NCBI GenBank assembly: GCA_040757115.1
Contig: JBFLYA010000139.1
Location: 1 to 9,729, forward strand
Direction of reading: 5' to 3'
Length of the DNA stretch: 9,729 nucleotides
Source of the DNA: a bacterium
GTDB lineage: Bacteria; UBA9089; CG2-30-40-21; SBAY01
Below the pieces are notes generated by a model. It saw nothing but the letters and a program-made list of their open reading frames with translations. It did no database searches and had not been told where the DNA came from. The translations under genes and the position numbers were made by a program. This document shows positions 3,895-9,723 of the stretch, piece after piece; position 1 is the first letter of the stretch; each line of letters starts with the position of its first letter.

Positions 3895-4080
3895 TGGTAA
3901 TTATAGTAGTTATTAACAAAAATTTCTCATAGAACAGATATAGCAACATGGTTGATAGTTTATAGTTTATAGTTTCATAGACTATCAACCCCATCAACTA
4001 TCAACTATCAACCATCAACAATACTAATGTGAACTTTTGGTTAATACTTACTATAGTAACTATTTAACCAATTACCAATA
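3895..4080. repeat. Nested foldback repeat filling the ftsK-rodZ spacer
   Basis: Nearly all of this spacer is self-complementary on two levels. The outer arms are 3903-3922 and 4035-4054, which match as inverted copies at 17 of 20 positions. They are flanked by TGGTAATT (3895-3902) and its reverse complement (4070-4077). Between the arms lies a heptamer hairpin (3951-4019): forward units GTTGATA and GTTTATA, then reverse-type units ACTATCA and ACCATCA. The right arm also shows a 7-bp rhythm (AGTAACT, ATTTAAC, CAATTAC). The inner core is shared with 322-402 and the TGGTAATT element with 6078-6085. Lying between two same-strand genes, it could fold in the transcript and partly separate ftsK from rodZ expression. 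That is inference; there is no clear T-run as in an intrinsic terminator. Confidence 0.8.
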
Positions 4081-5133: not shown

Positions 5134-6042
5134 TTAAAATCTTACTAAAAGGCAGTAGCGATGGGTTTTACCTAAATCTCCATACGGAACATAGGCATAG
5201 TCTAATTGTAAGGTGCGGAGTGCAAAGCCTATGCCTAAAGTTACCCCTGAGCCTTCATCTATCCCCGAGTTGTAGCCACCTCTTAATGCAACAGTTGAGG
5301 TCAGCCAGTATTCGGTACCTAAATTTAGCCTCAAGTCATTATCAACTGGCTTATTAATGTCCAGAAGAAGAATGAGTCTATCATCCATAGCCTTATAGGC
5401 AGTACCTAACTTGACATTTAATGGTAAGTTATCTCCTTCATTAATAAACTTTACCTTTGAGCCTAAATTCTGTAATGCGCCTCCAATTAACAGATTTTCT
5501 AGCGGTGTTCTGGACAAAAAGCCAACATCTACAGCAAAGCTATTAGCCTTTTCATTATCAATCTTTAATGAAATTGCTTTTATACTTGCTCCAAGAGATA
5601 GCTCCTCCGAGAGTTTCCAGCCGTAAGCCGCAGTAACTACCATATCTTTTGCCTCAAAATCACCTTCTTCTATCCCATTAGTGTTAAGCTTTTTCATATC
5701 TCCTGAGCCTAAATACATCATACTCAAGCCCAAAGCTCTATCATTAGCCAGTGGTTGTGCATAGCCTGCAAATCCGTAGTTTATCTCTTTGAGCCAATCA
5801 GAGTGCATAAAGCAAAACTCTTTTTCTTTTAAGTTTGCCAATCCTGCTGGATTCCAATAAATAGCAGTTACATCATCTGCTAATGCACCAAATGCCTCAC
5901 TCATAGCCGCAGGTCGAGCACCAACACTTAGTTTAAGCACCTGGGCTCCTGTTGAACCTTTTTTAGCTCCTTCTACTCCCACACTGTTTAAAGCTAAAAC
6001 AATCCCTAAACTTACCAATACCTTTAATACATTCTTACACAT
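5134..6042 (-). CDS. PorV/PorQ family outer-membrane beta-barrel protein
   Basis: A 302-residue predicted outer-membrane barrel of the PorV/PorQ (UPF0164) family. A signal peptide spans about residues 1-26, with cleavage likely after VEGA. The family signature GARPAAMSEAFGALADD (41-57) is followed by VTAIYWNPAGLA (58-69). The remainder alternates polar and hydrophobic residues as in amphipathic strands, and the chain ends in LLVRF, with the terminal phenylalanine typical of proteins inserted by the BAM machinery. In Bacteroidota PorV is the outer-membrane shuttle of the type IX secretion system, binding the C-terminal domain of cargo and passing it to PorU. In candidate phyla the family is broader and the role less certain. 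The gene lies 114 bases downstream of a large protein with a matching type of C-terminal domain, which supports a secretion or surface-attachment role. The ATG is set by a strong ribosome binding site at 6051-6060. It converges on rodZ with a 121-base gap. Confidence 0.88.
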   Translation of the reverse strand: MCKNVLKVLVSLGIVLALNSVGVEGAKKGSTGAQVLKLSVGARPAAMSEAFGALADDVTAIYWNPAGLANLKEKEFCFMHSDWLKEINYGFAGYAQPLANDRALGLSMMYLGSGDMKKLNTNGIEEGDFEAKDMVVTAAYGWKLSEELSLGASIKAISLKIDNEKANSFAVDVGFLSRTPLENLLIGGALQNLGSKVKFINEGDNLPLNVKLGTAYKAMDDRLILLLDINKPVDNDLRLNLGTEYWLTSTVALRGGYNSGIDEGSGVTLGIGFALRTLQLDYAYVPYGDLGKTHRYCLLVRF

Positions 6043-6050
6043 TTTAATCT

Positions 6051-6060
6051 ACCTCCTTTA
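6051..6060 (-). promoter_or_regulatory. Strong ribosome binding site of the PorV/PorQ-like gene
   Basis: Read on the minus strand this is TAAAGGAGGT, close to a full anti-Shine-Dalgarno match, about 8 bases before the ATG at 6042. It fixes the start and implies good translation even if the gene is co-transcribed with the large upstream gene. Confidence 0.8.
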
Positions 6061-6067
6061 ATTCGGT

Positions 6068-6103
6068 GATTGGTAAATGGTAATTAGCCAGTTACCAGTT
6101 ATC
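6068..6103. repeat. Short 7-bp-periodic imperfect palindrome
   Basis: Five consecutive 7-bp units can be read: ATTGGTA, AATGGTA, ATTAGCC, AGTTACC, AGTTATC (6069-6103). The first two are roughly the reverse complement of the last two, so the element can fold on itself. It contains TGGTAATT (6078-6085), the same octamer that flanks the foldback at 3895-3902 and, inverted, at 4070-4077. It is therefore probably a shorter member of the same intergenic family. It lies between the two minus-strand genes, just upstream of the PorV-like gene's ribosome binding site. Confidence 0.6.
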
Positions 6104-6130
6104 ATTGTCGTTTGTGTCTTCTTGAGGCAT
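6092..6130 (-). CDS. Possible 12-codon micro-ORF with a good ribosome binding site
   Basis: On the minus strand, ATG at 6130 opens a 12-residue frame reading MPQEDTNDNDNW before TAA. It sits between the large secreted protein and the PorV-like gene. A purine-rich stretch at 6141-6152 (GGAGGAAAGGAG on the minus strand) places GGAG 10 bases before the ATG, a normal distance. The last four codons and the stop lie inside the heptamer palindrome at 6068-6103. It may be a leader peptide, the stump of a gene broken by the repeat, or chance. There is no family resemblance and no proof of expression. Confidence 0.25.
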   Translation of the reverse strand: MPQEDTNDNDNW

Positions 6131-6140
6131 GTATGTGTTT

Positions 6141-6152
6141 CTCCTTTCCTCC
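6141..6152 (-). promoter_or_regulatory. Double Shine-Dalgarno-like stretch ahead of the micro-ORF
   Basis: The minus strand reads GGAGGAAAGGAG, two overlapping ribosome-binding-type motifs a few bases after the stop of the large gene. The only start codon at a suitable distance is the ATG at 6130, so this site either serves that micro-ORF or is orphaned. Confidence 0.4.
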
Positions 6153-6156
6153 ACAC

Positions 6157-9100
6157 TTATTTAATTATCGCCAATTTACCTGTCTTTTTACTTAAAGTGC
6201 TGCTATTGATTATGTAGATATACACACCACTGGCAAAGTCTTTTGCCGTAAGCCAGATATAGTCATTATCAGTCCCATGCATCTCTGAAACTAACTCACC
6301 GGCGATATTGTATATCTTAATATTCCAGTTAGTACCAAGATTTTCAAATTTAATCCCTTGACTAATACTCGGTCGATACGGATTGGGATAGACTTTGAAT
6401 ATAGCTGGGTTACTGATTTTAATGAACTCACAAATTTGTTTCTCAACTTCTTTCTTACCAGGTGTGTTATCAGGTAGTCCTGTTAGTACTGCTAACATTT
6501 CTTCGTAGCACTTAATAAACTTAGAGTGGTCTATCTCATAGATACTCATAGCCCTTGCAGGTGCTGGCATCATTAATCTTCTATCAGGAGTCTTTCCCCA
6601 ATTTACGGCTACGGCGATTATATCTTCTGGTTCTACTATTCCATTTCCATCGGTATCAGCGTAGCAGGCATCTGGAAATGGAGGGATGACAATGCCCCAC
6701 TTAATAGCTAATTGTTTTTCCCATTTTATCCTTATCTCAAGTGGCGTCTCATCAGGCCAACGGGCAGGTCCTGCCGCATGTAAGTACCAATAATATAGTA
6801 TGGGGATTATATCCCCTAACGCTACAATCCCATCGTTGTCTGTATCCCCGGGACAGACCTCGGCTGTATCTATCCCTAAATCTACTGTTAATGTACAACT
6901 ACCTGATGCAAGACCAATTCTATTTGACTCAGAACCATACGCAGATACCTGATGAACTGTAAATTTAATCTCTTCACCAATCTTAGCCTGGTCTAACACT
7001 TTAAGCCAAATATTAGTCATCGTCCCATACCCATTTACACCACCACCTTTTCGTGCCACGCAGATACTCAGTGTTCCATTACCACCTCCAGTTAGAATGA
7101 GTGAATCTATGCCGATAAATTCACCTGCTGTGATATTTTTATAAAGTGGCTTAACCACCTGTATAATATCAGGTCTATCCCATACCAGTTCATACACTAC
7201 ATTAGACAATTCAGTTACCTGATTATCTTCATCTCCTCCCTGTATGGTGAGTAAAAATTCCACCCCTGCTGGTTGAGGAGAGCTAAGTTCGGGTCTTATT
7301 GTCACCCTGTTTGTTACAAATTCATCTGATTCAGGTAACAGGCTGACCCAGCTTTGAGTTCCATAAGCCTCTACTTGACTAAAACTCACACTAATCGTCC
7401 CAGGTTGAGCCTCTGCAGATAATTTAAATTTCACTAAGACCACATTCCCATAGCCTGTTACACCCTGGTCAGTTGGTTTTCTACCAATAAATACTGTTAC
7501 TGTACCTGGAGAAGAATGGTCTTCCTGAAATATAGGGTCATCTCCTAAGAAACCACCATGTTTAACTTCAAGCACATCAAGAATCTCAAAATTGGTATAA
7601 TGAAGGTTAAATTTAAGGTGATGCAGGTCCTCAACAGGCTCTCCCTCATCCCCAACCTGAATTTTGACCCAAACCTCGGACCCGGCAGATTGGGGTGAAG
7701 AGACGATAGGTTTTATTTTAGCAGAGTAGAGGATGAAGTTGACACCTGTTGTCTCAGTGCTTGCTTTAATAACTACTCCACTGGTTTCTGTAGCTAAGTA
7801 GCCTGATTTTGATGCCCTTGCAGTATAAGTCCCTTCTGGTAAGCCAGTGATAGAATAAGTTCCCGCAGCGGATGTTGTAGTAGAACCTATCACCGTCCCC
7901 GTTCCATCCAAAGCCAGCACCGTCGCCCCTTCGATAGCCGTCATCCCATCAGATTCAGTGACTTTGCCTGATATAGAGGCTACTCCAAGGGAATTGATTA
8001 TATCGTCTATATTAACCTCAGCATCATCATATAAGCTAACTCCTGTACTTACAGCCCCAGTATGAAAGGCTATCAGTCCTCGATAAGTGGCCGTTCCTCC
8101 TGGATTCAAGGTGAATTCTCTTACCATTGAGTCCAAACAAGTTGAAGGAGGGATGTAACCTGTTGGACCACCAGTGACAAATTGATTAGGATTAGTTGTC
8201 CAAGGTTGGATGAAACCAAATGTCATCCCTTCAGTATTATCATATATAGAGACGAATGGTTTTGTAGGCGAAGGGGAGTAGACTGACCACACATTAACAG
8301 AATCAAAGATTTGCTCAGAATATCCATATACAGTGAATTTATCAGGATTTACTGGTATTAAAGACCCAAATGCTGCACCATCATGGATGTGTGTTGGGTA
8401 CTCATCATAGGTAAAGGTCGAGCTACCAATATTCCTGAAAGTAGTCTGAAAGACTGCATACTCCTTATCTTTGGGAAGTATGATTGTTGCAGTAACCATT
8501 ATTTGCTTATCTGGTGTAGTTCCCTGTATATGGGTAACCCGATAAGCGGCTACTTCAGGTGTATTCTTAATCAACTCAACTGTATTTGGAATCACACCAC
8601 TTATATATTCATCAACAAACATCCCCCAATTTCCATTTGGCTTGGTATAAGAACTCTGACCAGATCTACCCCCGGCTGAATAGTAATTATAACCATTCTC
8701 GCTATCTCCATTTATCTGGATCCATACCTTGCCATTGTCCATCTTAATATCGATTGTACCATCATGGGTCAAATCTTGTTGGATGACTGTAACCTCACTA
8801 CCTGTATCAAAAACTGATATATCTCTTGTGGTTGTATCTGTTGCTCCATCGGTATCTTTAACTTCAAGTCTGATAATTTTAGTTCCAGCAGTTGGGTATT
8901 GGTGAGAGGCTGTCTTAACAGTGGTATAAGGTGTATCCCAACTACCATCATTCTCCCAGTCCCATCTTACTTGCAAAGCAGAGGTGGGGTCTTCCTTATC
9001 AGTAGATGAAGAGGCATCTACGGTATAGGTAGTGCCTACTGGACCTGAGGAAGGACTGACCGTGAAAGAGGCAATAGGAGGGGTGTTGGTGCCCGTTAAA

Positions 9101-9627
9101 GATTGGGCGATAGCATAGAGTTTATTATCCCAGGAACCAACATAGATGGTTCCATCAGAGTTTATTGCTGGGGAAGAGGTAATAATACCTTCGGTAGCAA
9201 ACTCCCATTTCTTCGTGCCATCAGGGTTTATGGCATAGAGTTTTTTATCGTATGATCCTACATAAATTGTCCCATCAAACCCTATGGCTGCTGAAGAACT
9301 GGCAAGATCTCCTGTAGCAAACTCCCATTTCTTCGTGCCATCAGGGTTTATGGCGTAGAATTTATTGGCATACAAGGATCCCACATAAACTGTTCCATCA
9401 ACTTCTATGGCTGGGGAGGAACCCACATGACTTTCTGTAGCAAACTCCCATTTCTTCGTGCCATCGGGATTTATAGCATAGAGTTTATGATCGTGTGAGC
9501 CAACATAGATAGTCCCATCAACTCCAATTGCAGGGGAAGATTCTACACTATCACCGGTTTCAAACTCCCATTTCTTTGTCCCATCAGGGTTTATGGCATA
9601 GATGCTACATAGCATAACATCGTGCAC
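6157..9627 (-). CDS. Large modular secreted protein: PQQ-like repeats, PKD, cohesin-like, dockerin-like, C-terminal sorting domain; 5' end probably lost
   Basis: A 1156-residue extracellular multidomain protein. In order: four PQQ-like beta-propeller repeats (9-48, 49-89, 90-129, 130-169; core YAINPDGTKKWEF ... DGTIYVGS) with the start of a fifth; a PKD domain (about 183-273); an unassigned beta-rich region (about 275-545); a carboxypeptidase-regulatory-like domain (550-633, ISGKVTESDG ... GLPEGTYTARASKSGY); two related cohesin-like modules (about 636-776 and 778-915); two dockerin-type calcium loops (DTDNDG at 928-933, DTDGNG at 991-996); and a FlgD/T9SS-like sorting domain (about 1075-1156, VYPNPYRPS ... 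IKIYNIAGELV ... SGVYIYII). No enzyme active site is recognised, so binding or scaffolding is likelier than catalysis. The GTG at 9627 is simply the first start codon after an in-frame stop: it lies inside a 19-bp repeat, has no ribosome binding site at a usable distance, and there is no signal peptide. ATG at 9615 is no better. The original N-terminus appears missing. Confidence 0.85.
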   Translation of the reverse strand: MHDVMLCSIYAINPDGTKKWEFETGDSVESSPAIGVDGTIYVGSHDHKLYAINPDGTKKWEFATESHVGSSPAIEVDGTVYVGSLYANKFYAINPDGTKKWEFATGDLASSSAAIGFDGTIYVGSYDKKLYAINPDGTKKWEFATEGIITSSPAINSDGTIYVGSWDNKLYAIAQSLTGTNTPPIASFTVSPSSGPVGTTYTVDASSSTDKEDPTSALQVRWDWENDGSWDTPYTTVKTASHQYPTAGTKIIRLEVKDTDGATDTTTRDISVFDTGSEVTVIQQDLTHDGTIDIKMDNGKVWIQINGDSENGYNYYSAGGRSGQSSYTKPNGNWGMFVDEYISGVIPNTVELIKNTPEVAAYRVTHIQGTTPDKQIMVTATIILPKDKEYAVFQTTFRNIGSSTFTYDEYPTHIHDGAAFGSLIPVNPDKFTVYGYSEQIFDSVNVWSVYSPSPTKPFVSIYDNTEGMTFGFIQPWTTNPNQFVTGGPTGYIPPSTCLDSMVREFTLNPGGTATYRGLIAFHTGAVSTGVSLYDDAEVNIDDIINSLGVASISGKVTESDGMTAIEGATVLALDGTGTVIGSTTTSAAGTYSITGLPEGTYTARASKSGYLATETSGVVIKASTETTGVNFILYSAKIKPIVSSPQSAGSEVWVKIQVGDEGEPVEDLHHLKFNLHYTNFEILDVLEVKHGGFLGDDPIFQEDHSSPGTVTVFIGRKPTDQGVTGYGNVVLVKFKLSAEAQPGTISVSFSQVEAYGTQSWVSLLPESDEFVTNRVTIRPELSSPQPAGVEFLLTIQGGDEDNQVTELSNVVYELVWDRPDIIQVVKPLYKNITAGEFIGIDSLILTGGGNGTLSICVARKGGGVNGYGTMTNIWLKVLDQAKIGEEIKFTVHQVSAYGSESNRIGLASGSCTLTVDLGIDTAEVCPGDTDNDGIVALGDIIPILYYWYLHAAGPARWPDETPLEIRIKWEKQLAIKWGIVIPPFPDACYADTDGNGIVEPEDIIAVAVNWGKTPDRRLMMPAPARAMSIYEIDHSKFIKCYEEMLAVLTGLPDNTPGKKEVEKQICEFIKISNPAIFKVYPNPYRPSISQGIKFENLGTNWNIKIYNIAGELVSEMHGTDNDYIWLTAKDFASGVYIYIINSSTLSKKTGKLAIIK
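9111..9602 (-). repeat. Tandem 120-123 bp coding repeats (PQQ-like units)
   Basis: Four near-identical units encode the propeller blades at the start of the large protein. The segment encoding YAINPDGTKKWEFAT recurs at about 9194, 9314, 9437 and 9557, spacings of 120, 123 and 120 bases. Two units share 41 identical bases in a row (9194-9234 and 9314-9354), far more than protein constraint alone requires. This points to recent duplication or gene conversion. A working propeller usually needs six to eight blades, so four and a part suggest that more units once lay upstream. Confidence 0.85.
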
Positions 9628-9723
9628 CCTATTTTAATACAAATTTATAGCAGGACATCGTGCACTCTCACCCCATGGGGTGAGCGAAATTCTAATCCTC
9701 AAAAATAGCAGGACATCGTGCAC
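9609..9723. repeat. Three direct copies of a 19-bp repeat at the broken gene end
   Basis: ATAGCAGGACATCGTGCAC occurs exactly at 9647-9665 and 9705-9723, and with two changes (TA for GG) at 9609-9627. All copies have the same orientation, with spacers of 19 and 39 bases. Each copy contains the palindrome GTGCAC. The cluster starts where the PQQ-like coding repeat stops matching its sister units (about 9603). The copies and spacers are too short and uneven for an ordinary CRISPR array. They could be binding sites or the subterminal part of a mobile element that continues beyond the window. Confidence 0.8.
9667..9684. repeat. 18-bp perfect palindrome between two copies of the 19-bp repeat
   Basis: CTCACCCCATGGGGTGAG is identical to its reverse complement. 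It occupies the middle of the 39-base spacer between the second and third copies of the 19-bp repeat. It is far more GC-rich than its surroundings. It could be an operator for a dimeric protein or a hairpin. No T-run follows on either side, so a terminator is unlikely. Confidence 0.75.

Follow-up and report, generated by a model that had tools for sequence, protein, structure and literature searches.

The cluster of 19-bp direct repeats analysed here is best explained as the left end (LE) of a multicopy insertion sequence (IS) of the IS481/IS1202 superfamily, in which the repeats probably make up multi-site transposase binding ends; we put the probability of this reading at roughly 85%. The window, i.e. 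the whole stretch of DNA analysed, is the complete contig C139 of the source genome (G000), 9729 bp long, and the cluster lies at the contig end. When re-measured in the sequence, the three same-direction copies of the initial annotation, the 19- and 39-bp spacers between them and the 18-bp perfect palindrome were all recovered. The cluster limits it had given, 9609-9723, had to be extended on both sides, as the true start is 9603 and the feature runs on beyond the contig end. The features are as follows.

6157-9602, minus strand: 3' part of an interrupted gene (PQQ-type beta-propeller, PKD, carboxypeptidase-regulatory-like, Por secretion tail), with its 5' part on contig C54
9597-9602, no strand: 6-bp target duplication CATAGA (TCTATG on the other strand), with its second copy on contig C54
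9603-9729, plus strand: truncated LE of the insertion sequence, found on five contigs with different flanks and identical at 127/127 positions in genome G001
9603-9627, plus strand: 25-bp imperfect terminal inverted repeat TGCTACATAGCATAACATCGTGCAC, with its partner TGATAACTAGCAGCACATCGTGCAC on contig C54
9609-9627, plus strand: R1, ATAGCATAACATCGTGCAC, inner 19 bp of the terminal inverted repeat with two changes; presumed outer transposase site
9647-9665, plus strand: R2, exact copy, presumed inner transposase site; offset kept in the G275 and G013 elements
9667-9684, no strand: palindrome CTCACCCCATGGGGTGAG, between R2 and R3
9705-9723, plus strand: R3, exact copy, presumed inner transposase site; offset kept in both G275 elements

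Allowing two mismatches at most, the 19-mer was counted 16 times on six contigs of the 4.3-Mb source genome while the reversed-pattern control gave 0. Within the end, 2 internal copies of the 11-bp core were found against 0.014 expected per shuffled end, and over the range of ends tested the shuffles gave 0.01-0.03 extra cores per end. The cluster is therefore judged not to be a product of chance, and the 19-mer is not, as the initial annotation had allowed for, found only here. Elsewhere in the window, the M16 peptidase and FtsK genes are flanked at 305-402 and 3933-4023 by short repeats, both direct and inverted, with units like AACTATC/GATAGTT.

Comparison of the flanks gave a single common border. 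Contigs C94, C110, C121, C139 and C221 share sequence starting TGCTACATAGCATAACATCGTGCAC, over 123-127 bp on four of them and ~ 86 bp on C221, and the sequence before it is unrelated on each. Given this common border behind five different flanks, the element starts at window position 9603. From there to the contig end there are exactly 127 bp, and contig C54 opens with exactly 127 bp of related, oppositely pointing sequence beginning TGATAACTAGCAGCACATCGTGCAC. Ends of this length would fit a de Bruijn graph with k of ~ 127 breaking at both ends of a multicopy element. The initial annotation had also named a short assembly collapse as an outcome that would refute it; indeed the contig stops here, where a multicopy IS broke the assembly, but the repeats themselves are real and are present in an unbroken contig of another genome. 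In the last ~ 100 bases of C221 (L021) the LE copy folds back at the palindrome with a perfect inverted continuation at the contig end, which is probably an assembly or library artefact.

The right end (RE), the partner of the window's insertion, is on contig C54. TCTATG abuts both ends, and when duplication lengths from 4 to 9 were compared only 6 matched. Once one TCTATG copy is removed, the halves from the window and C54 form a single open reading frame, which opens with a signal-peptide-like start (MKKNLIVLGILGLSLIG...), continues with PQQ-type repeats (...DDKLYAINPDGTKKWEF...) and passes into the 1156-aa ORF of the window, this join spanning two contigs. The listed GTG start of that ORF, at position 9627, falls inside the IS. 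Since the ORF ends in a Por secretion tail and adjoins a PorV-like gene, the gene interrupted by the IS probably encodes a type IX secretion cargo; the two genes together (5134-9602) form a type IX secretion-type cargo/outer-membrane pair. No orthologous empty site was found in G001, where the searches returned only PQQ paralogues, 66-75% identical.

Short spaced repeats accompanied by a palindrome may also recall a CRISPR array, an attachment site, a riboswitch or a terminator, but the 'spacers' are identical in all contigs, the Rfam scan gave no match at gathering scores and the palindrome CTCACCCCATGGGGTGAG has no T run. Together with the inverted repeat, the duplication and the transposase of the relatives, this refutes these explanations, of which the initial annotation had set aside an ordinary CRISPR, a tRNA-type attachment site and a terminator. 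In the element, the palindrome is downstream of the stop codon of the transposase gene, and the G275 element has different palindromes at the same place. It could act as a hairpin against read-through transcription or equally be a mere spacer; in RNA folding of two LEs compared with shuffles, the whole end folds no better significantly.

The source assembly gave no transposase match, and the body of the window's own copy is therefore not seen. In G001, a genome of the same genus, the identical 127-bp end continues into a reverse-strand gene for an rve-type DDE transposase. This gene is broken at about 2521-2647 of L027 (G001:C289) by the end of what appears by eye to be another IS with an IS5-like transposase. 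A complete relative is present in G275 (L055, 1958-3423): it is 1466 bp long, is flanked by the duplication GTTAGT and encodes a single 360-aa transposase, 53% identical over 239 aa to that of G001. Its C terminus (L055, 2193-2300) is ~ 30 residues shorter than in the relatives and its profile match includes one in-frame TGA, for which reasons this copy may be inactive. More distant relatives were recovered with the G275 transposase protein as query. For L055, L081, L082 and L083, the best solution of an unguided scan for a 6-bp duplication with 25-bp inverted repeats coincides with the proposed ends, the last three having the duplications CCTGAC, CCTAGG and ATTAGC respectively. Intact relatives are ~ 1.4-1.5 kb long. 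A lone RE-like tip, TGACAAATAGCAGG..., was also observed at ~ 2952 of a Candidatus Mcinerneyibacteriota contig (L026, DAOVMD010000127.1) with no second end identified; we judged it a remnant, and it suggests an old insertion in another phylum. A match on a viral contig (L037), in an apparent coding region and without a second end, was judged to be due to chance. Plasmid and phage searches returned only distant IS481-type proteins of at most 40% identity, and scans of viral-contig proteins found nothing.

The missing transposase match would also fit a reading in which the G000 copies form a non-autonomous, MITE-like family, with repeats acting in cis only and the transposase encoded elsewhere. 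Related short elements do exist in other genomes, namely a 469-bp copy in G275 with the duplication TATAGT and a 196-bp copy in G013 with TTTAAT. Against it, the identical end in G001 leads into a transposase gene, and repeated IS bodies of this size would commonly be lost as short unbinned contigs, as the 127-bp overlaps lead us to infer. We therefore regard a MITE-like family as unlikely, although it keeps some weight.

Including TCTATG of the window's insertion, the duplications are 6 bp in every case listed above, and TA stands at the centre of the 6-bp target (NNTANN) in 12 of 13 insertion sites (P 1.4e-12 against the window TA frequency). For IS481, NCTAGN has been published as the consensus target, together with a duplication of 6 bp (PMC3053399), and the majority of IS481 elements duplicate 6 bp (PMC10045372). 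The suggestion of the initial annotation that the repeats lie at the end of a mobile element and may bind its transposase is thus supported by the borders common to many copies, the right end that pairs with this left one, the 6-bp duplications, the transposase gene carried by close relatives and the existence of non-autonomous derivatives. Its other suggestion, an interspersed repeat, holds in so far as the copies are dispersed, but they are repeated by virtue of being an IS end.

Within the 25-bp terminal inverted repeat the 19-mer makes up the inner part, and the repeats point inward at nearly fixed offsets in both ends. In the LE, TAGCAG... lies at offsets of 8, 46 and 104 from the tip in the window, at 8/45/105 in the complete G275 element, at 8/45/104 in its short copy and at 8/46 in the G013 short copy. 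In the RE the offsets are 8/23/59 in C54 and G275, the middle site keeping only its 11-bp core; G013 has 8 and 59 with the middle-site core at the same place, and the 469-bp copy of G275 has one RE site only, the first. Cores vary among genomes. In the LE of G275 the core of R1 has diverged to GGTAAC, which, like the single RE site of the 469-bp copy, counts against the multi-site reading. In G013 ATCGTTTAC is found in both LE repeats and the RE tip, and the two remaining RE copies have ATCGTAGAC and ATCGTGTAC. The G013 changes are consistent with sites that co-evolve with the transposase. Further out, L081 has 3+2 repeats, spaced differently, and L082 and G335 have 2+2 each, G335 without a clear duplication. 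L083, a basal relative, shows a duplication although each of its ends has a single site; extra sites are for this reason not needed by the whole clade. A single clade for all multi-site members is neither rejected (p-AU 0.17) nor demonstrated by the tree test.

As read from this arrangement, the three 19-bp repeats are most likely stacked transposase docking sites. The transposase would bind all six sites, three per end, through its N-terminal helix-turn-helix domains; the outermost site would position the tip for cleavage, and the inner sites would hold further transposase subunits and thereby promote assembly and pairing of the two ends. The paired tips would then be inserted at NNTANN into the two target strands with a 6-bp stagger, producing the duplication. 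Since the LE (8/46/104) and RE (8/23/59) are spaced differently, an asymmetric complex would be expected, as in Tn7 and Mu. The extra repeats could instead be operator sites outside end pairing, for a regulator or for autoregulation by the transposase. In the G275 element the RE repeats occupy the stretch that separates the element end from the start of the transposase gene, the expected place of a promoter, and IS21 ends overlap promoters that are occluded by IstA binding (PMC10122671). However, the LE repeats are downstream of the transposase gene, and the inner sites are retained in non-autonomous copies, which have no gene to regulate. An operator role is thus quite improbable, and docking sites are the preferred explanation.

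The transposases of the clade match HTH_23 and HTH_29 as well as rve and rve_3. IS481 is the best NCBIfam model for every one of them, at 69-126 bits over nearly the full model but below the cut-off of 224. In the tree they form a clade with 100/100 support, apart from canonical IS481 proteins. The catalytic motif is DD(43)E in 6/6 clade members, whereas most canonical IS481 compared have DD(34)E, with 48 in the canonical protein of G030. Among solved structures, no sequence match to the G056 transposase was found. The clade shares with IS481 the TG-starting imperfect inverted repeats, the 6-bp duplications and the TA-centred target, and in one end of a canonical IS481 element of G466 the core ACATCGTGAAC occupies the same position as in the clade. 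In contrast, multi-repeat ends were found in none of the six canonical IS481 elements on which these statements rest, those of G466, G028, G412, G447 and G514 (multi-copy) and of G030 (single); cores were counted in G466, G028, G030 and one G447 end and the others were inspected, the right borders of G447 and G514 being unsure.

The closest published architecture is that of the IS1202 family (ISAjo2, ISAba32 and relatives; PMC10132070): in elements of the ISAjo2 type, the inner 19 bp of the inverted repeat occur once more close to each end. The resemblance extends to a length of ~ 1.3-1.7 kb, imperfect inverted repeats of 22-29 bp, a single TnsB-like DDE transposase and DD(43)E. In the window's element the inner 19 bp are likewise repeated near each end, with two further copies per end, one RE copy being partial. 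However, BLASTP of the clade transposases against ISAjo2 gave no significant match (the family test being at least 25% identity), and none of them matches the ISNCY_2 model, on which ISAjo2 itself scores 490 bits. The residue at E+7, Q in IS1202, is Q in 1/6 clade members and D or E in 5/6. Furthermore, the clade duplicates 6 bp throughout as against 3-5 or 16-28 bp in IS1202, has up to three sites per end at other spacings, and no dif targeting was seen. ISAjo2 sits on a long branch in the transposase tree, its position there being unsure. By the tests run, the element is not an IS1202 member and, judged by its sequence, would at most be a distant IS481 member.

Several same-direction, inward-pointing and asymmetrically placed TnsB sites per end are known from Tn7 and CRISPR-associated transposons (PMC10201428), and IS21 has repeated sites (L1/L2, R1/R2) in both ends (PMC10122671). 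The clade resembles the former in its several inward-pointing, same-direction and asymmetric repeats per end and the latter in having repeats in both ends. Unlike either, the complete G275 element encodes a transposase in one ORF and lacks an AAA+ partner like TnsC or IstB. The IS21 model scores only 15-31 bits on the clade; membership of IS21, which the TG tip and the repeats in the ends had suggested, was rejected, IstB matches in G000 being only weak and the relatives' transposase being single and IS481-like. We tentatively entertain, with the odds somewhat against it, a separate family between IS481 and IS1202, in which a helper-free single transposase would form an asymmetric six-site Tn7/Mu-like complex, the multi-site ends having arisen within the clade with co-evolving sites. 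The clade was placed by NCBIfam models and the ISAjo2 comparison, and named members of it may already exist.

In light of these results, an odd repeat is explained as an IS end at which an assembly broke. Beside IS1202, which was called unique in its multi-site ends by its authors (PMC10132070), there now stands a clade of small elements whose multi-site ends are Tn7-like. Canonical IS481 elements, by contrast, appear to manage with one site per end. If the element does use six sites, a single-protein element of 1.4 kb would offer a compact system for studying what makes several asymmetric sites at each end necessary for some transposases.
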